The notes under the pieces: model-generated
What the model was told of the DNA's origin: nothing
What the model saw: the letters and a program-made list of their open reading frames with translations, nothing else
The model's database searches: none
Made by a program: the position numbers and the translations under genes
Shown here: piece after piece, positions 40 through 9,003 of the stretch
Position numbering within the stretch: position 1 is the stretch's first letter
How the letters are laid out: each line of letters opens with the position of its first letter
Assembly (NCBI RefSeq): GCF_003568845.1
Contig: NZ_CP030126.1
Coordinates: 472,501 to 536,500 of the forward strand
Direction: 5' to 3'
DNA: 64,000 nucleotides
Source: Indioceanicola profundi
GTDB taxonomy: Bacteria > Pseudomonadota > Alphaproteobacteria > Azospirillales > Azospirillaceae

Positions 40-1563
40 TCACTCCTCCGCAACCGGCTCGACCGGTTCTGGCGGAGTGCCGTTCAGGAAAAGCTCCGCC
101 GCCGGATGCAGGGGGATGGACAGGCCCGTGCGGGCCCTGTGCATGGATATCGCCGATCCGGCGGAACTGCCGGCAGCGACATAGTTGATCTCCCCCATCA
201 TGGTGGAGAGCAGCGTCCTCACCTCCACCTCGGGCATGGAGGCGCGGGTGGCCAGCAGGGCGGTGACGGCCATCGTCGGTACCGGCTGCGCCTGCCTGGG
301 ATATGTGCCGGCGGGCAGGGTGAGCGGAACGAGGCTGGGATTCTCCCCGGCCATGGCGGCGACGGCGTCCCGGTCCAGCGGCACCAGCCTGATCCCCGGA
401 CGGGCCGACAATTGCTGGAACAGTTGGGCCGGCGCGTGGATGACGCCGATCAGGGCGTCGATCCGGCCGGCAGCCAGGGCCTCCGCAGCCTCGACCGGAC
501 CGATTTCCGCCATTTCCCCCAGATCCTCCGGCGCCAAGCCGTGGGCTTGAAGCACGGAAAGGGCCGTCAGGCGTGAGCCGGAGGCCGGAAGGCCGACGCT
601 GACGCGCTTACCACGGAGATCGCCCACTGCCTGGATCGGGCTGTCCGCAGGCACGACCACATGAACGGCCTCCGGGAAGAGGCTGGCCAGGGCCCGCAAT
701 TCCGGGAACGGGCCGGCCTGCTGGAACAGGCCTGCTCCCTGCGCCGCCATGGCGGCGATGTCGTTCTGGACCAGGACGACATCGGCCGAACCGTCGCGGA
801 GGAGACCGAGATTCTCCACGCTGCCGGCGGTGGCGACAGCCGTGGAGCGCAGGCCGCCAGCGGCGATGAAGTCCGCCGTCGTCGTGGCAATGAGATCATA
901 TTCGCCGCCCGCCGGACCGCCGGCAATGACGAAGCTGCGCTGCAACCGGTCCATGCGCAGGGTGATCTGCTGGTAGGCCTGATGGAGCTCCTGCGTGATG
1001 ATGGCCCGCGCCTCGCTGGCCATGCCGGGGGGCGGCCCCTCGAACATGCCCATGATCTGGTCGACCAAGCCGCGGGCGACGGCCGGCGGGCCGGTATTGT
1101 CCAGCGCGGGCGGCTGCTGCAACGGCGGCGGGACGAAGACCGTTGGCTGCCAGTTCCCATCCTCGGCCTGTTGGAACGTGACCGACCCGCGCACGCGCAA
1201 CTGGTCGCCGGCCTTGTTGCCGTCGCGCTCGATCCCCTCCACCCCCCGTTCGGCGGCGCCCAGGATCTGGGCCAGCGAGGCGGGGTTCAGGGACTCCCAG
1301 TCATTGAAGGAATAGTCCCGGAGGAGACGGAGCTGGGCGTTGTAGTAGACAATCTTCCGGGCGGTTCCGTCCGGCTCGTCCGGCAACGGGCTGCTGCCGA
1401 GGCGGGAGAAGGCCTCGATCTCCAGCACCGGTTCCGGGAACGCGCCCTGCAACTGGGATTGGACGGTTTCCCGGACCTGTTCCTCCGTCGGCGTGCGCTC
1501 ACAAGCGCTGAGCGGGATGAGCGCCAGGAGGAGGATGAAGAGGTGGGCCAGTCTGCGCGCCAT
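40..1563 (-). CDS. TAXI-family substrate-binding lipoprotein
   Basis: The 507-residue product starts with a lipoprotein signal peptide with lipobox LSAC (Cys21), so it should be anchored in an envelope membrane. Residues ~210-470 look like a TAXI-type (TRAP-associated extracytoplasmic immunogenic) binding protein, with an AGGPAGGEYDL start and a later GSVENLGLLRDGSADVVLVQ segment. Residues ~25-200 form an N-terminal region that I do not recognise. The gene starts 14 nt after the gltS-type gene, behind a GGGAGAG ribosome site, so the two are co-transcribed. TAXI proteins normally serve DctQM TRAP permeases, and none is visible here. Binding of glutamate or another dicarboxylate for the neighbouring symporter is an inference. 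Confidence 0.85.
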   Translation of the reverse strand: MARRLAHLFILLLALIPLSACERTPTEEQVRETVQSQLQGAFPEPVLEIEAFSRLGSSPLPDEPDGTARKIVYYNAQLRLLRDYSFNDWESLNPASLAQILGAAERGVEGIERDGNKAGDQLRVRGSVTFQQAEDGNWQPTVFVPPPLQQPPALDNTGPPAVARGLVDQIMGMFEGPPPGMASEARAIITQELHQAYQQITLRMDRLQRSFVIAGGPAGGEYDLIATTTADFIAAGGLRSTAVATAGSVENLGLLRDGSADVVLVQNDIAAMAAQGAGLFQQAGPFPELRALASLFPEAVHVVVPADSPIQAVGDLRGKRVSVGLPASGSRLTALSVLQAHGLAPEDLGEMAEIGPVEAAEALAAGRIDALIGVIHAPAQLFQQLSARPGIRLVPLDRDAVAAMAGENPSLVPLTLPAGTYPRQAQPVPTMAVTALLATRASMPEVEVRTLLSTMMGEINYVAAGSSAGSAISMHRARTGLSIPLHPAAELFLNGTPPEPVEPVAEE

Positions 1564-1577
1564 GGCACTCTCCCCGG

Positions 1578-2798
1578 TCAGAAGCCGAACATGGGAAGGC
1601 TCATGAAGCCCTGGATCACCAGGGCGTTCGCAAGGTCGATCAGGAATGCCCCCACCACCGGAATGATGAGGAAGGCTTGGCGCGAGGGGCCGTAGCGGGC
1701 GGTGAGCGCCTGCATGTTGGCGATGGCGGTCGGGGTCGCCCCCATGCCGAAGCCGACATGGCCGGCCGACATCACGGCTGCGTCATAGTTCTTCCCCATG
1801 ACCCGGAAGGTGACGAAGTAGACATAGATCGCGATCGCCACCACCTGGGCCGCCAGGATGGCGAGGATCGGCAGGGCCAGGGCCACCAGTTCCCAGAGGC
1901 GGAGCGCGATCAGCGCCATGGCCAGGAACAGCGAGAGCGAGACCGTGCCCAGCAGCTCCACCGTGTCGTCGTCGATATGCCGCAGCCTGCCGAGGCTGAG
2001 CACATTGCGCAGGAGGACACCGGTGAACAGGGTCCACACGAAGGTGGGCAGCGTGAGGTAGGGGTTGGTGAAGGCCTTGCCCAGCCAGGACCCGATCATG
2101 ATGCAGGCGAGGATGAGGAGCAGGGTCTCCAGGAAGGATTCCGGGCTGAGCGCCCGTCGCATGCCGCTCTCCAGCTCACCCGGGGCGCCGGTCTCATGCG
2201 TGTCGGCAGCCGGCGCCAGACGATGCCGCGTGATCAATTTCTGGGCCAATGGACCGCCGAGCAATCCGCCCAGCACCAGCCCGAAGGTGGCGCAGGCCAT
2301 GGCGATCTCCATGGCGCCCTGAACGCCGTCCACCTCGCTGAAGCGGGTGGCATAGGCCGCACCTGTACCGTGGCCGCCGGACATGGTGATGGAGCCGGCC
2401 AGAAGGCCCGCCAGCGGATGCAGATCCATGCTCATCGCCACGGCAACGCCAACGGCGTTCTGCAAGAGGAGCATCACAACAACGACCAGCAGGAAGATCA
2501 CCACCGCCCGACCGCCCTGCACCAGGGAGCGGAGATCGGCGCTGAGCCCGATGGTGGCGAAGAAGGCCAGCATCAGCGGCGTCTGCAGCGACATGTCGAA
2601 GGTGATCTGCGCCCCCGCCCAGATGTGCAGGGCGGTGATCACGCATGCGGCAAGCAGGCCGCCCACCACAGGCTCAGGAATATTGTAGCGGCTGAGGAAG
2701 CCGATCCGGGAAATCAACGCCCGGCCGATCATCAGCACGATGATGGCAAGGACCAGCGTGGTGACGACGTCGATTTCCAGGGTCACCGTGCCCTCCAT
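1578..2798 (-). CDS. gltS: sodium/glutamate symporter, GltS family
   Basis: The 406-residue membrane protein has about ten hydrophobic segments. It carries the family pattern of GltS: an N-terminal NIPEPVVGGLLAA segment and glycine-rich re-entrant stretches such as MSGGHGTGAAYA and GHVGFGMGATPTA. GltS proteins import glutamate with sodium across the inner membrane. It is the first gene of an operon with the TAXI lipoprotein. The ATG at 2798 follows AAGG closely; a GTG four codons downstream behind GGAGGG is an alternative start. An inverted repeat GAACC-N7-GGTTC lies upstream at 2843-2859 and could be an operator. The true substrate is not shown by sequence. Confidence 0.9.
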   Translation of the reverse strand: MEGTVTLEIDVVTTLVLAIIVLMIGRALISRIGFLSRYNIPEPVVGGLLAACVITALHIWAGAQITFDMSLQTPLMLAFFATIGLSADLRSLVQGGRAVVIFLLVVVVMLLLQNAVGVAVAMSMDLHPLAGLLAGSITMSGGHGTGAAYATRFSEVDGVQGAMEIAMACATFGLVLGGLLGGPLAQKLITRHRLAPAADTHETGAPGELESGMRRALSPESFLETLLLILACIMIGSWLGKAFTNPYLTLPTFVWTLFTGVLLRNVLSLGRLRHIDDDTVELLGTVSLSLFLAMALIALRLWELVALALPILAILAAQVVAIAIYVYFVTFRVMGKNYDAAVMSAGHVGFGMGATPTAIANMQALTARYGPSRQAFLIIPVVGAFLIDLANALVIQGFMSLPMFGF

Positions 2799-2842
2799 CC
2801 TTCATTGCGCGATTGTGAACGCAAGCAGAGGGCAACACGCGA

Positions 2843-2859
2843 GAACCACCTTATGGTTC
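2843..2859. promoter_or_regulatory. inverted repeat upstream of the gltS-type gene
   Basis: GAACC-N7-GGTTC lies 45 bases upstream of the symporter start, in the only gap before it. It also contains one TAAGGTG half-site (minus strand), like those in the TetR operators 750 bases away. It may be an operator; no regulator can be assigned. Confidence 0.25.
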
Positions 2860-2890
2860 CCTACAGATGCTCCCAATCGCGCGGAATGCG

Positions 2891-3547
2891 CTATTCGCGC
2901 ATCGGCGGCGGGCCGATGCCTGCCAGCGCCAGTCCGGCCGGCGTGGTGTAGGGCAGGAACAGGCTCATCACCTGCGCGGCCCCCCAGTCCACATGCTGGC
3001 GCGTGATGTCGGACATGCCGTGGCGGGAGCGGAGATAGTCGATCCAGTAGGTGGAGACGATCCAGGCATTGACCATCAGCCGCTCCGTCTCCTCCGGCGT
3101 CGCACGGATCAGGCCGGCGGCTTTCATGCCGTCCAGCGCCCGCCTGATCTGGTCCTGCCCGTCATCGGACAGGACCTTGAGGCGGGAGCGGAGGGAAGGG
3201 GCCAGGCGGCAGACGGCCCCGCCGTCGCGGTAGAAGAAACGCCATTCCCACATCAGGTTGAACCAGCCGCGCAGATAGTCGGTATAGCGGCGGGGATCGT
3301 CGCCATAGTCCAGGTCAGCGGTCGCCACATCGCGCAGGGCCTGCTCGAACGCTTCGAACAGCGCCTCCAGGATCTGCTCCTTGCGTTGGAAGTGGTAGTA
3401 GAGGTTGCCCTCGTTGATCCCGACGGCGGCGGCAATTTCCGCCGTCGTCACGTCGGCGGCCCCGCGCTCGTTGAACAGCTCCTGGCAGATGGTGAGAATC
3501 CGCGTGCGCGTCTTCGGCCGCCGCTTGGATTCCGCTTCTTCCGCCAT
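2891..3547 (-). CDS. TetR family transcriptional repressor
   Basis: The 218-residue product has a standard TetR N-terminal helix-turn-helix: RILTICQELFNERGAADVTT, then AEIAAAVGINEGNLYYHFQRK. The helical C-terminal half begins LRGWFNLMWEWRFFYRDGG and would bind the ligand. I chose the ATG at 3547 because GGAAGAGG stands about 8 nt before it; an upstream in-frame start adds 20 poor residues. It is divergent from the monooxygenase operon and the gap holds two copies of a palindrome, so it probably represses that operon and itself. The arrangement parallels EthR/EthA of mycobacteria. The ligand is unknown, though a ketone or ester of the pathway is plausible. Confidence 0.88.
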   Translation of the reverse strand: MAEEAESKRRPKTRTRILTICQELFNERGAADVTTAEIAAAVGINEGNLYYHFQRKEQILEALFEAFEQALRDVATADLDYGDDPRRYTDYLRGWFNLMWEWRFFYRDGGAVCRLAPSLRSRLKVLSDDGQDQIRRALDGMKAAGLIRATPEETERLMVNAWIVSTYWIDYLRSRHGMSDITRQHVDWGAAQVMSLFLPYTTPAGLALAGIGPPPMRE

Positions 3548-3595
3548 ACACCGGCCCTCTTCCTTCCGGCTCCTATCCCAAGGAGCATCATCGTC

Positions 3596-3638
3596 TAAGG
3601 TGAACACCTGTTGACGTGCCTAAGGTAAGCACCTTAGG
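3596..3638. promoter_or_regulatory. tandem palindromic operators for the TetR regulator
   Basis: Two copies of TAAGGTnAnCACCT occur 25 bp apart, at 3596-3609 and 3621-3634. The second extends to an 8-bp perfect inverted repeat around AAGC (3619-3638: CCTAAGGT then ACCTTAGG). A TTGACG hexamer at 3611-3616 lies between the two copies and could be the -35 element for the rightward operon. This is the pattern expected for a dimeric TetR repressor blocking divergent promoters. The assignment to this regulator rests on position. Confidence 0.65.
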
Positions 3639-3743
3639 CTTCGAGTATGCCAGCCAAGGCTGGACCAGTCCATCACGCGGGCAACCGGACGGGGCGCATT
3701 GCCCGCAGAAGCCGGGAGCCGCGCAGCATCGGGGAGGCATCGC

Positions 3744-5282
3744 ATGGACATGGCTGTTGGAAGCGCCGCGGCGGAGTCGCCGGCAGAAGCGCCGGGCGCT
3801 CCGGGCGGCGTACAGCATTTCGACGTGCTGATCGTCGGGGCCGGCCTGTCCGGCATCGGGGCCGGCTACTATCTTCAGACCGAATGCCCGAACAGGAGCT
3901 ACGCGATCCTGGAGGGGCGGCACACGATCGGCGGGACCTGGGACCTGTTCCGCTATCCCGGCATTCGGTCGGACTCCGACATGTACACGCTGGGCTACAG
4001 CTTCCGCCCCTGGCTGGGCGGCAAGGCCTTCGCCGACGGGCCTTCCATCCGGGACTATGTCCGTGAGACGGCGGCGGAGCACGGCATCGACCGGAAGATC
4101 CGCTTCGGCCACCGCGTCACGCACGCGTCCTGGAGCACGGCCGATGCGCTCTGGACCGTGCAGGCCGAGGTCGGGCCGGACAACGCCCCGGCCCGCTTCA
4201 CCTGCAACTTCCTTTATGTGTGCAGCGGCTACTACGATTACGACGAGGGCTACATGCCCGGCTGGGACGGCATGGAGCGGTTCGGCGGACGCATCGTGCA
4301 TCCCCAGAAATGGCCGGAGGAGCTGGACTACAGCGGCAAGCGGGTGGTGGTGATCGGGAGCGGGGCCACGGCGGTGACGCTGGTGCCGGAGATGGCGAAG
4401 CGGGCCGCCCATGTCACCATGCTCCAGCGCTCCCCCACCTACATCGTGGCGCGGCCAGGGGAGGACAAGATGGCGCTCTGGCTGCAGAAGCGGCTGCCGT
4501 CCGGGCCGGCCCACCGCATGGCGCGGTGGAAGAACGTGCTGCTCAGCATGTATTTCTACAACATCTCCCGCTTCAAGCCCGACCTCGTGAAGCGCATGAT
4601 CCTGAAGGGGGTGCAGGCGCATCTGGGGCCCGGCCATGATGTGGAGAAGCACTTCACGCCCAGCTACAATCCGTGGGACCAGCGGCTCTGCCTGGTTCCC
4701 GATGCCGATTTGTTCAAATCGATCCGGGACGGCAAGGCGTCGGTGGTGACCGACCAGATCGACAGCTTCACCGAGACGGGACTCCGGCTCCGCTCCGGCG
4801 GGCAGCTCGATGCCGACGTCGTCGTGACGGCCACCGGCCTCAAGCTGAAGATGATGGGCGGCATGCGGATGGAGGTGGATGGCAGGCCGGTGGAGATGCC
4901 GAACACCCTGACCTACAAGGGCATGATGTTCAGCGACATTCCCAATCTGGCGGCGGCCATCGGTTACACCAACGCCTCCTGGACGCTGAAATGCGAGCTG
5001 ACATCGGAATATGTCTGCCGCCTGCTGAAGCACATGGATGCGCGGGGCTATGCCTGGTGCGTGCCGCGCCGCCCGGCGCAGGGGCTGGAGGTGGAGCCGG
5101 CGATCAATCTCAACTCCGGCTATGTGCAGCGGGCCAGCTCCATCCTGCCCAAGCAGGGCACCCGCAAGCCATGGCGGCTCAACCAGAACTATGCGCTCGA
5201 CATGGCGGCGCTGCGCTATGGCACCGTGGAGGATGGCAGCCTGGAGTTCGGCCGCACCGCCCCGGGGAGGCGCGCCGCTTGA
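3744..5282 (+). CDS. EthA-like Baeyer-Villiger monooxygenase (FAD/NADPH)
   Basis: The 512-residue product inserts one oxygen atom into ketones to give esters or lactones. It has an FAD Rossmann motif GAGLSG (residues 32-37) and the segment GGTWDLFRYPGIRSDSDMYT. The Baeyer-Villiger fingerprint FxGxxxHxxxWP is at residues 180-191, and the NADPH motif GSGATA at 205-210. From memory, these and the RLNQNY region near the C-terminus closely resemble mycobacterial EthA. The ATG at 3744 follows GGGGAGG; a TTG 45 nt upstream lacks such a site. The gene heads an operon with a dehydrogenase and a hydrolase, and is divergent from a TetR gene. The natural substrate is unknown. Confidence 0.9.
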   Translation: MDMAVGSAAAESPAEAPGAPGGVQHFDVLIVGAGLSGIGAGYYLQTECPNRSYAILEGRHTIGGTWDLFRYPGIRSDSDMYTLGYSFRPWLGGKAFADGPSIRDYVRETAAEHGIDRKIRFGHRVTHASWSTADALWTVQAEVGPDNAPARFTCNFLYVCSGYYDYDEGYMPGWDGMERFGGRIVHPQKWPEELDYSGKRVVVIGSGATAVTLVPEMAKRAAHVTMLQRSPTYIVARPGEDKMALWLQKRLPSGPAHRMARWKNVLLSMYFYNISRFKPDLVKRMILKGVQAHLGPGHDVEKHFTPSYNPWDQRLCLVPDADLFKSIRDGKASVVTDQIDSFTETGLRLRSGGQLDADVVVTATGLKLKMMGGMRMEVDGRPVEMPNTLTYKGMMFSDIPNLAAAIGYTNASWTLKCELTSEYVCRLLKHMDARGYAWCVPRRPAQGLEVEPAINLNSGYVQRASSILPKQGTRKPWRLNQNYALDMAALRYGTVEDGSLEFGRTAPGRRAA

Positions 5283-5299
5283 GGCGCGGGGAGCGGCGG

Positions 5300-6121
5300 A
5301 TGACCAACATGATGAAGGTTCAGGGCCGCACGGCGGTCATCACCGGTGCGGCGAGCGGGATCGGGCGGGCCATCGCGATATCGCTGGCCCGGCGCGGCTG
5401 CAATTTGGCGCTGGCCGATCTGAACGAGGCCGGGCTTGAGGAAACGGCCCGGCTGGCCGGGAACGGGGTGCGGATCAGCCGCCACCGGCTGGACGTGTCC
5501 GACCGGGCAGCGGTCGCGGCATTTCCGGATTCGGTGCGGGCCGCCCATCCCGGCGTCGACATCCTGGTGAACAATGCAGGCGTGGCCATCGGCGGCACCT
5601 TCGAGCAGGTCGGTGAAGCCGATTTCGAGTGGCTGTTCGAGATCAATTTCTGGGGCGTGGTGCGGATGACCCGCGCCTTCCTGCCCCTGCTGCGGGCCAG
5701 CGACGATGCGCGGCTGGTGAATCTGTCCAGCATCTACGGCATCATCGCCCCGCCGGGCCAGAGCGCCTATTCCGCCAGCAAGTTCGCGGTGCGCGGTTTT
5801 TCCCAGGCGCTGCGGCATGAGCTGGAGGGAACGCATATCGGGGTAACGGTGGTGCATCCCGGCGGGGTCGCCACCTCCATCGCCAAGAATGCCCGGGCGC
5901 CCAAGGATGTGCCGGCGGAGGAAGTCGAACGCCGCCGGGCGGAATCGGATAAGATGCTGACCCTGCCGCCGGAAAAGGCGGGGGAGATCATCGTGACGGG
6001 GATCGAGCGCCGGCAGGCGCGCGTGCTGGTCGGCAACGATGCCAAGATCGTATCGGTGATCGAGCGCTTGAAGCCCGTCACCTATTGGAAGCTCCTGGAG
6101 AAGATGAGGCCGAAAGCATGA
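5300..6121 (+). CDS. short-chain dehydrogenase/reductase
   Basis: The 273-residue product is a classical SDR, with cofactor motif TGAASGIG near residue 14, NNAG near residue 90, and the catalytic Ser plus YSASK (YxxxK) near residue 157. Such enzymes interconvert alcohols and ketones with NAD(P). It starts 17 nt after the monooxygenase, behind GGGGAGCGG. Its stop overlaps the start of the next gene (ATGA), so translation is probably coupled. In this operon it may make the ketone that the monooxygenase oxidises, or process the products. An acidic residue after the second strand (ALADLNE) suggests NAD preference. Confidence 0.9.
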   Translation: MTNMMKVQGRTAVITGAASGIGRAIAISLARRGCNLALADLNEAGLEETARLAGNGVRISRHRLDVSDRAAVAAFPDSVRAAHPGVDILVNNAGVAIGGTFEQVGEADFEWLFEINFWGVVRMTRAFLPLLRASDDARLVNLSSIYGIIAPPGQSAYSASKFAVRGFSQALRHELEGTHIGVTVVHPGGVATSIAKNARAPKDVPAEEVERRRAESDKMLTLPPEKAGEIIVTGIERRQARVLVGNDAKIVSVIERLKPVTYWKLLEKMRPKA

Positions 6122-7065
6122 CCCCCCTGGTGATCGGAGCCGCCGCCGTCGGTGCGGTTTTCGGCGGGCTTGCCATGTTCACGGGCATGACGGCGCGCCG
6201 GATCGAAAAGGCCATGCCGCCGCAGGGGCAGTTCATCGAGGTCGATGGCGCCCGCCTCCACTATCTGGACCGCGGGACGGGGCCGGCCATCGTCATGGTC
6301 CATGGCCTCGGCGGGCAGATGGGGAATTTCAGCCATTCCCTGCTGGACCGGCTGGCGGGCGACTTCCGGGTCATCCTGGTGGACCGGCCCGGTTCCGGCT
6401 ACTCGACCCGGCCTGCCACGGCCTCGGCCAGCCTGCGGGCGCAGGGCGATATCATCGCCGGGTTCATCCGTGCGCTGGGGTTGGAGAAGCCGCTGCTGGT
6501 CGGGCATTCGCTGGGCGGGGCTATTGCGCTGGCCGTGGCGCTGGACCATCCGGACTGCATCGGCGGCTTGGCGCTGATCGCCCCGCTGACCCATGTGCAG
6601 CAGGCGGTGCCGGCCTCGTTCAAGGGGCTCGCCATCGAGTCCAAGCTGGCCCGGCGGATAGTGTCCTGGACACTGGCGACGCCGGCGGCGATCATGAAGC
6701 GCGACCAGGTGCTGGACTTCGTGTTCGGCCCGGACAAGCCGCCGGCGGATTTCGCGACGGCGGGGGGCGGGCTGCTGGGGCTGCGGCCGGGGGCCTTCTA
6801 CGCCGCCTCCACCGACATGGTGTCGATCAATATCGACCTGCCGTCGTTGGTGGAGCGCTATCCCGCCATCACGCTGCCGGTCCGCATCCTCTATGGGCGT
6901 GGCGACCGGGTGCTGGACTGGCAGGCGCATGGCGCCGCCATGAAGGACAAGGTTCCGGGCCTGGAGCTCGAGCTGGTGGAGGGCGGCCATATGCTGCCGG
7001 TCACGGCCCCGGACCTGACGGCGGACTGGGTCAGAAGAGCGGCGAATGGTCTCAAGAAGGATTGA
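6118..7065 (+). CDS. alpha/beta hydrolase, probable esterase
   Basis: The 315-residue product begins with a hydrophobic segment (residues ~3-24) that may anchor it in the membrane. An alpha/beta hydrolase fold follows. The oxyanion motif HGLGG, the nucleophile elbow GHSLGG, an acid near YGRGD and the histidine in EGGHMLP complete a Ser-Asp-His triad. It overlaps the dehydrogenase by 4 nt. Downstream of a Baeyer-Villiger enzyme the obvious role is to hydrolyse the ester product to an acid and an alcohol. That role is inferred from context. Confidence 0.85.
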   Translation: MTPLVIGAAAVGAVFGGLAMFTGMTARRIEKAMPPQGQFIEVDGARLHYLDRGTGPAIVMVHGLGGQMGNFSHSLLDRLAGDFRVILVDRPGSGYSTRPATASASLRAQGDIIAGFIRALGLEKPLLVGHSLGGAIALAVALDHPDCIGGLALIAPLTHVQQAVPASFKGLAIESKLARRIVSWTLATPAAIMKRDQVLDFVFGPDKPPADFATAGGGLLGLRPGAFYAASTDMVSINIDLPSLVERYPAITLPVRILYGRGDRVLDWQAHGAAMKDKVPGLELELVEGGHMLPVTAPDLTADWVRRAANGLKKD

Positions 7066-7121: not shown

Positions 7122-7709
7122 ATGCAGAACGCCGGGCTTTCCGTCGCCATTGTCGATGAGAATCAGATGCGGGCGGCGATCCTGGAGGAGGGGCTCGTCT
7201 CCGCCGGGATCAGCCAGGTCACGCTGATTTCCGACACCACCAACCTGCTGCGCCAGTTGGTTGACCTCGCCCCCGACGTGGTCATCATCGACCTGGAGAA
7301 TCCCAGCCGCGACGTGCTGGAGCAGATGTTCCAGGTCTCCCGTGTCGTGGCCCGGCCGGTCGCCATGTTCGTGGACCGCTCCGACAGCTCCATGATCCAG
7401 GCGGCGGTGGATGCCGGCGTCTCCGCCTATGTGGTGGACGGGCTGAGGAAGGAGCGGATCAAACCCATCGTCGACATGGCGATCAGCCGCTTCAACGCCT
7501 TCAGCCGCCTTCAGGACGAGCTGGAGAAGGCCCGCAACGAGCTGGCCGAGCGCAAGGTGATCGAGCGCGCCAAGGGCATCCTGATGAAGACCCGCAAGAT
7601 GTCGGAGGAGGAAGCCTACGCCGCCCTGCGCCGTCTGGCGATGAGCGACAACCGCCGCATCATCGACATTGCCCAAAGCGTCGTGACAGCCGCAAAATTG
7701 CTGGGGTAA
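7122..7709 (+). CDS. nasT: nitrate-responsive antiterminator NasT (ANTAR)
   Basis: The 195-residue protein has an N-terminal receiver-like domain (residues ~7-120) and a C-terminal ANTAR RNA-binding domain (~130-190; ERAKGILMKTRKMSEEEAYAALRRLA). NasT proteins bind paired hairpins in nitrate-operon leaders and prevent termination when nitrate releases them from NasS. The next gene encodes NasS, and a leader with two hairpins and a terminator lies before nrtA. The receiver has DEN where phosphorylated regulators have DD, as expected for control by NasS binding rather than by a kinase. Confidence 0.93.
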   Translation: MQNAGLSVAIVDENQMRAAILEEGLVSAGISQVTLISDTTNLLRQLVDLAPDVVIIDLENPSRDVLEQMFQVSRVVARPVAMFVDRSDSSMIQAAVDAGVSAYVVDGLRKERIKPIVDMAISRFNAFSRLQDELEKARNELAERKVIERAKGILMKTRKMSEEEAYAALRRLAMSDNRRIIDIAQSVVTAAKLLG

Positions 7710-7746
7710 GTGAAGTATGGACGGCACAGCCCCGGAGGACAGGACA

Positions 7747-9003
7747 ATGGCCGGCCCGGACGGCGCGCGGGAGCTGCGTATCGGCTTCATCCCGCTGGTG
7801 GACTGCACGCCGCTGGTGGTGGCGCATGAACGGGGCTTCGCCGCGGCGGAGGGGCTGCGGCTCAATCTGGTGCGGGAAACCTCCTGGGCCAATATCCGCG
7901 ACCGGCTGGTGCTGGGCCATTTCGATGCGGCGCACATGCTGGCCCCGATGCCGGTATCCGCAAATCTGCGCATCGGCTCGCTCCACACGCCCATGTCGGT
8001 GCCGCTGGTGCTGAATCTTGGCGGCAACGCCATCACCGCCTCCACGGCTTTGTGGGCGGAGATGAAGGCGGCCGCCGGGGGGGAGCTGTCCGGCACCGAT
8101 CCGCGTGGGATGGGGGAGGCCCTGGCCGCTGTCGTGCGCGCACGGTCTGCCGCTGGGAGGCCGCCGCCGACCATTGGCATGGTGCATCCCTTCAGCGCGC
8201 ATAATTACGAGCTGCGCTACTGGCTGGCTGCGGCCGGGGTGGACCCGGACGAGGATGTGCGGCTGGTGGTGGTGCCGCCGCCCTTCATGGCCGACGCCAT
8301 GGCCGCGGGGCAGGTGGACGCCTTCTGCGTGGGGGAGCCCTGGAACAGCCTGGCGGTGGAGGCCGGGGTGGGCCGGATCATCACCACCAAGGCGGCGCTC
8401 TGGCGGCAGGGTCCGGAGAAGGTGCTGTCCGTCCGCGCCGACTGGGCGGAGCAGGCGCCGGAAACGCTGGCCGCCCTGCTGCGCGCTCTGGTCAAGGCAG
8501 CGGCCTGGGCCGAGGATGCCGCGAACCGGGAGGAGCTGGCCGCCTTGCTGGCCGATCCCCGCTATCTGGGCGTGGATGCCGGGATCATCGGCCGCGCCTT
8601 GTCCCACCGGCTGGTGCTGGAGCGGGGAGGGGAGCCGGTGGAAGTGGCCGACTTCCTGCTGTTCGAACGCTCCGCCGCCACCTTCCCGTGGCAGAGCCAT
8701 GCCTTGTGGATCTACAGCCAGATGGTCCGCTGGGGCCAGACGGCCGAGACCGCGGAAAACCAGGACCGCGCCCGGCGCACCTACCGGCCGGACATCTACC
8801 GCCGGGTGCTGGGGCCGGAAGGCGTGGCGCTGCCCAATGCCAGCATGAAGGTGGAGGGCGCGCTGAAGGCGCCGACGCCGGTCGCCTCCTCCACCGGGCG
8901 GATGGTGCTGGGGCCGGACGGCTTCTTCGACGGGCTGGAATTCGACCCCGACGATGTGGAGCGCTACATCGCCGGCTTCGCCATTCACAAGCGGAATGCC
9001 TAG
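7747..9003 (+). CDS. nasS: nitrate sensor NasS, NrtA-like
   Basis: The 418-residue product matches the nitrate/bicarbonate-binding protein family (RIGFIPLVDCTPLVVAHERG, VGEPWNSLAVEAG) but has no signal peptide. It is therefore a cytoplasmic sensor rather than a transport protein. NasS holds NasT inactive until nitrate or nitrite binds. I chose the ATG at 7747 because GGAGG stands 8 nt before it; an ATG at 7717 would add ten residues with no good ribosome site. It follows nasT directly and precedes the regulated leader. The paralogue downstream, NrtA, shares the fold but has an export signal. Confidence 0.9.
   Translation: MAGPDGARELRIGFIPLVDCTPLVVAHERGFAAAEGLRLNLVRETSWANIRDRLVLGHFDAAHMLAPMPVSANLRIGSLHTPMSVPLVLNLGGNAITASTALWAEMKAAAGGELSGTDPRGMGEALAAVVRARSAAGRPPPTIGMVHPFSAHNYELRYWLAAAGVDPDEDVRLVVVPPPFMADAMAAGQVDAFCVGEPWNSLAVEAGVGRIITTKAALWRQGPEKVLSVRADWAEQAPETLAALLRALVKAAAWAEDAANREELAALLADPRYLGVDAGIIGRALSHRLVLERGGEPVEVADFLLFERSAATFPWQSHALWIYSQMVRWGQTAETAENQDRARRTYRPDIYRRVLGPEGVALPNASMKVEGALKAPTPVASSTGRMVLGPDGFFDGLEFDPDDVERYIAGFAIHKRNA

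Follow-up and report, generated by a model that had tools for sequence, protein, structure and literature searches.

The 64-kb window (the whole stretch of DNA analysed here) contains a gene for a TAXI-type binding lipoprotein directly downstream of a gene for the Na+/glutamate symporter GltS, and this pair is a further example of the published TAXI-GltS systems, not a new kind of transporter. Both genes lie on the minus strand, with the 406-aa GltS encoded at positions 1578–2798 and the 507-aa lipoprotein at positions 40–1563. In the sequence, the start codon of the lipoprotein gene follows the stop codon of gltS after 14 nt (positions 1564–1577, minus strand). The gltS product belongs to the ESS family (GltS), matching NCBIfam TIGR00210 with an E-value of 3.4e-148 and a score of 493.7 bits that exceeds the equivalog cut-off of 310.75; it also matches Pfam PF03616 (E = 2.9e-140). 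Residues 200–492 of the lipoprotein match NCBIfam TIGR02122 (TRAP_TAXI) with an E-value of 9.9e-69 and 231.6 bits, the cut-off being 84.35, and the protein matches Pfam PF16868 (NMT1_3; E = 1.3e-56). The coordinates and the two NCBIfam matches bear out the first-pass annotation of this DNA, which had described a TAXI lipoprotein gene and gltS on one strand, 14 nt apart.

That annotation left undecided whether such a pairing had been reported before. It had, since Jaques et al. (Commun Biol, August 2025; PMC12344293) described "TAXI-GltS" BP0402/BP0403 from Bordetella pertussis, and because the pairing was already in print in 2025 we regard the window pair as real but not as a new transporter kind. 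BP0403, a lipoprotein, has about 500 residues in three domains; it dimerises via its helical domain and becomes monomeric with the substitution L201R. Its isolated TAXI domain binds L-glutamate with a Kd of 180 nM, and binding becomes 167-fold weaker with the substitution Y219A and 250-fold weaker with Q263A. The B. pertussis gltS gene lies directly upstream of BP0403, with a 3-bp overlap. The same paper reports gltS-TAXI linkage in other bacteria and TAXI-GltS fusions in Lachnospiraceae, and notes that for most GltS proteins no binding protein partner is known (PMC12344293). Azospirillum, Skermanella, Cupriavidus and the Alphaproteobacteria go unmentioned in its main text. A literature search of open-licence PubMed Central papers, preprints lying outside its scope, found no second report of a TAXI-GltS pairing.

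The window pair and BP0402/BP0403 have in common a lipoprotein of about 500 residues with an alpha/beta N-terminal domain, a helical domain and a C-terminal TAXI domain, a gltS gene directly upstream, a key Tyr and Gln with a spacing of 44 residues, and a neighbourhood in which no TRAP permease gene was detected. The two pairs differ at the gene junction (a 14-nt gap versus a 3-bp overlap) and in their hosts, which belong to different classes of Pseudomonadota. They also differ in the nature of the evidence, binding and dimerisation having been measured on the BP0403 protein, whereas the window lipoprotein is known from sequence and models. Four of the six features of TAXI-GltS systems of the elongated BP0403 type are found in the window pair: the TAXI domain, the adjacency to gltS, the extra domains and the key Tyr/Gln. 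The other two features of the type are a PilO-like fold of the N-terminal domain, and dimerisation by the helical domain together with nanomolar L-glutamate binding, as measured for BP0403. The window pair represents a TAXI-GltS outside Bordetella in which coupling could be studied. The stand-alone GltS of E. coli (ESS family 2.A.27) is of the same symporter family as the window GltS, but GltS of this type has no known binding protein partner.

We used AlphaFold2 models to delimit the domains of the lipoprotein. The full-length model (10 sequences; mean pLDDT 73.2, pTM 0.54) contains an alpha/beta domain up to about residue 145, helices at residues 161–175 and 182–208, and then the TAXI fold; confidence is low (pLDDT <50) at residues 145–177 and 201–207. 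This three-domain model matches the published architecture of BP0403, and the lipoprotein is thus predicted to have the extra N-terminal alpha/beta and helical domains of the elongated TAXI-GltS type. On the minus strand of the window, the putative signal peptide is encoded at positions 1501–1563 and ends in a lipobox-like L-S-A-C, recognised by eye, of which Cys21 is the expected lipidation site; all 11 proteins in the alignment have this Cys. The predicted alpha/beta domain (approximately residues 22–145) is encoded at positions 1129–1500, and the predicted helical domain (approximately residues 146–208) at positions 940–1128. The TAXI substrate-binding domain (residues 209–493) occupies positions 85–939 and is assigned from Foldseek matches as well as from its two invariant binding residues. 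Among solved structures, it comes nearest to two TAXI proteins with L-glutamate, 1us4 (Foldseek E = 3.3e-24) and 8u79 (E = 3.7e-24), and it also matches the structure of the Vibrio cholerae protein VcGluP (8s4j; E = 2.5e-22).

The N-terminal part was analysed separately. A Pfam search with the 187 residues after Cys21 gave zero matches at E <= 0.01, and the earlier description of an N-terminal part of about 190 residues as unassigned therefore stands. An AlphaFold2 model of the N-terminal and helical part alone had a mean pLDDT of 78.3, and Foldseek returned zero matches to the N-terminal domain model at E <= 0.001. VIA-align gave similarities that are all weak (Z <8), the best being to the NTF2-like protein 3ub1 (Z 6.4, rmsd 2.7, 82 aligned), with PARC6 (Z 6.0, rmsd 4.5, 94 aligned) and PilO 2rjz (Z 4.7, rmsd 4.7, 86 aligned) below it. 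Because all of these Z-scores are under 8, no fold is assigned to the domain, and the similarities may reflect merely a common arrangement. A PilO-like fold was reported for the N-terminal domain of BP0403 (PMC12344293); our model is slightly nearer to NTF2-like than to PilO folds, both resemblances being weak.

The two residues that dominate glutamate binding in VcGluP and BP0403 are conserved in the window lipoprotein. Tyr222 and Gln266 are invariant in 11 of 11 proteins (the window protein and ten aligned homologues) and likewise in a second alignment (n = 10) that adds six Cupriavidus proteins. In the HMMER alignment they coincide with the key Tyr and Gln of VcGluP (8s4j), Y45 and Q93, and their spacing of 44 residues equals that between Y219 and Q263 of BP0403. 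Mutations of Y45 and Q93 are those most harmful to glutamate binding by VcGluP (PMC11574862). Weaker contacts of VcGluP were mapped by reading the alignment. All 11 proteins retain its E125; at the position of Y200 the window protein has Gly and the homologues have Ser, Gly, Gln or His, and at that of M201 all 11 have Val. The presence of Gly and Val at these two positions means that ligand preference could differ from that of VcGluP. VcGluPQM of V. cholerae (PMC11574862) is a TAXI-TRAP glutamate transporter that resembles the window pair in its TAXI fold and two dominant ligand residues, but differs from it in having a fused TRAP permease as partner and a binding protein of conventional size. 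Residue 204 is Leu in 10 of the 11 proteins and Met in the window protein; it was equated with L201 of BP0403 by numbering, assuming a constant offset of 3.

Conserved adjacency in relatives had been set beforehand as a test of the pairing, and it was found. All 18 distinct loci carrying the elongated lipoprotein have gltS as the neighbour directly upstream, in the same orientation. Besides the window, these loci come from five genomes of a second genus in its family, two other members of the class, three of the phylum, and seven Cupriavidus records. Two of the five genomes match Skermanella records, and NCBI assigns Skermanella to the Azospirillaceae. With at least one possible start codon, the two genes overlap or sit no more than about 30 nt apart at all of these loci except one (L079). 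At L079, from Cupriavidus necator UYPR2.512, the reading frame of the lipoprotein is interrupted close to the start, which may mean a pseudogene or a sequencing error; this locus is included among the 18. Since gltS is directly upstream in every case, the adjacency is not due to chance, and this strict gene order strengthens the case for the two proteins working together. A contig search with the full-length lipoprotein found no relative, and one with the N-domain alignment found 10 loci, three of which (L072, L073 and L074) overlap loci already counted and were counted once. The elongated type of TAXI lipoprotein is rare. It is present in 6 of the 35 genomes of the window's family, its own included, and absent from 29, and the N-domain profile matches four of the 385 genomes sampled from the class and four of the 398 from the phylum, the window's own genome being among the four in each set.

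The gltS genes were also considered independently of the lipoprotein. A gltS gene over the cut-off was found in 17 of the 385 class genomes, six weaker matches below the cut-off having been left out. Four of these 17 genes have the elongated lipoprotein. For the other 13, tblastn and the elongated-family HMM, the TAXI part of which also finds conventional TAXI proteins, detected no TAXI gene within about 1.5 kb, or within less on one side of L097, where the flank is shortened by a contig end. GltS in general therefore needs no TAXI neighbour. In a GltS tree of 31 rows, the TAXI-linked symporters fall on one side of a branch, requiring 1 change compared with a shuffled mean of 10.2. The branch that separates them is weakly supported (59/47) and appears in 62% of bootstrap trees, and the tree, which contains several long branches, does not decide whether TAXI-linked GltS had a single origin.

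TRAP permeases, the partners of TAXI proteins in TAXI-TRAP systems, were sought around the pair and elsewhere in the genome. Twelve DctM or fused TRAP permease sequences, used as tblastn queries (E <= 1e-3), had no match in the 64-kb window or in the readable part of its flank, in agreement with the earlier observation that no DctQ or DctM gene is near the pair. The combination of a TAXI gene with a fused TRAP permease gene, by which a TAXI-TRAP system is recognised, was thus not found at the pair within that searched region. TRAP permease genes were likewise absent, by tblastn at E <= 1e-3, from 16 of the 17 relatives' loci (8–16 kb each). At the Skermanella aerolata locus (L046, approximately positions 1501–6239), the gltS-lipoprotein pair is directly preceded by DctP and DctM genes, so that TRAP genes are not always missing from the neighbourhood; these genes include their own DctP-type binding protein. 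TRAP permease genes were thus found near the elongated lipoprotein in 1 of 18 loci. In the window's own genome (5.37 Mb, 4 contigs), one gltS gene was found; eight TAXI proteins exceed the family cut-off, as do three fused TRAP permeases theirs, and the genes of these three are away from the pair. Three TAXI proteins of this genome other than the window lipoprotein (L005, L006 and L010) also exceed the family cut-off but have no over-cut-off fused TRAP permease beside them, and are possible orphans.

By analogy with B. pertussis, the two genes would form a TAXI-GltS glutamate uptake system, and we consider the lipoprotein likely to catch glutamate and deliver it to GltS, the Na+-coupled symporter. 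The lipoprotein would be anchored by its N-terminal lipid on the outer face of the inner membrane. Based on what was measured for BP0403, it would probably dimerise through its helical domain, and its C-terminal TAXI domain would be expected to bind L-glutamate. The glutamate would then be handed to a dimeric GltS, presumably an elevator-type transporter, and this hand-over may raise the affinity for scarce substrate. The first-pass annotation proposed a secondary transporter that is assisted by a binding protein and lies outside the TRAP family, which is also the published reading of the B. pertussis pair (PMC12344293). Its suggestion that the N-terminal region could serve in docking has been published in part: the helical portion of this region is what dimerises BP0403, and the alpha/beta domain of BP0403 has been modelled touching the transport domain of GltS (PMC12344293). 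The docking itself, like the delivery of glutamate to GltS and transport by the pair, is something we infer for the window pair and for BP0402/BP0403 alike.

A potential concern with this interpretation is that adjacency of the genes might have a basis other than direct delivery. The lipoprotein could bind glutamate in a sensing or regulatory role towards GltS, or simply keep ligand close to the membrane, with GltS transporting alone. Such a role would be in keeping with the 13 of 17 sampled gltS genes that have no detected TAXI gene nearby, and coupling is unproven in Bordetella too, Jaques et al. stating that functional coupling of TAXI and GltS awaits experimental verification (PMC12344293). 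Direct delivery is a better fit, however, to the tight gene order conserved in all 18 loci and to the published TAXI-GltS fusion proteins (PMC12344293), and we consider a purely sensory, regulatory or ligand-holding role improbable. We consider it very improbable that the partner of the lipoprotein is a TRAP permease from another part of the genome and that the lipoprotein gene shares no more than regulation with gltS. The genome does encode three fused TRAP permeases and eight TAXI proteins, and DctP and DctM genes adjoin gltS in S. aerolata; nevertheless, the lipoprotein is beside gltS at every one of the 18 loci and, with the search at the window's own locus covering the readable flank, was found near a TRAP permease at only one, where a DctP-type binding protein is already present.

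An additional question concerns the ligand. The pair could be a binding-protein-dependent symporter for a glutamate-like compound other than L-glutamate, an explanation that shares its mechanism with delivery of glutamate to GltS and differs in substrate only. The replacement of VcGluP residues Y200 and M201 by Gly and Val in the window lipoprotein would be consistent with another ligand, and TAXI systems for other ligands are mentioned by Jaques et al. (PMC12344293). The invariance of both dominant binding residues, Y222 and Q266, and the score of the window GltS above the TIGR00210 equivalog cut-off argue for L-glutamate, and a different substrate seems to us unlikely. Returning to the preferred reading of glutamate delivery, an extension of it can be proposed tentatively and with some doubt, in which the GltS of this lineage became dependent on the lipoprotein. 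The TAXI-linked symporters would then be one clade that arose once and was passed between the Alphaproteobacteria and the Cupriavidus side. Stand-alone transport would have been lost or weakened, and the N-terminal domain would dock onto the mobile transport domain.

Two other parts of the window were examined. The TetR gene upstream of the pair (positions 2891–3607) was considered as a member of the system and set aside, because no homologue was detected at E <= 1e-3 near the pair in the 17 other loci. Further along the window, on the plus strand, Pfam matches identify an ANTAR response regulator gene (positions 7122–7709) followed by a gene for an NMT1_2-type binding protein (positions 7717–9003), an arrangement that we take to resemble the NasT/NasS nitrate-sensing pair.
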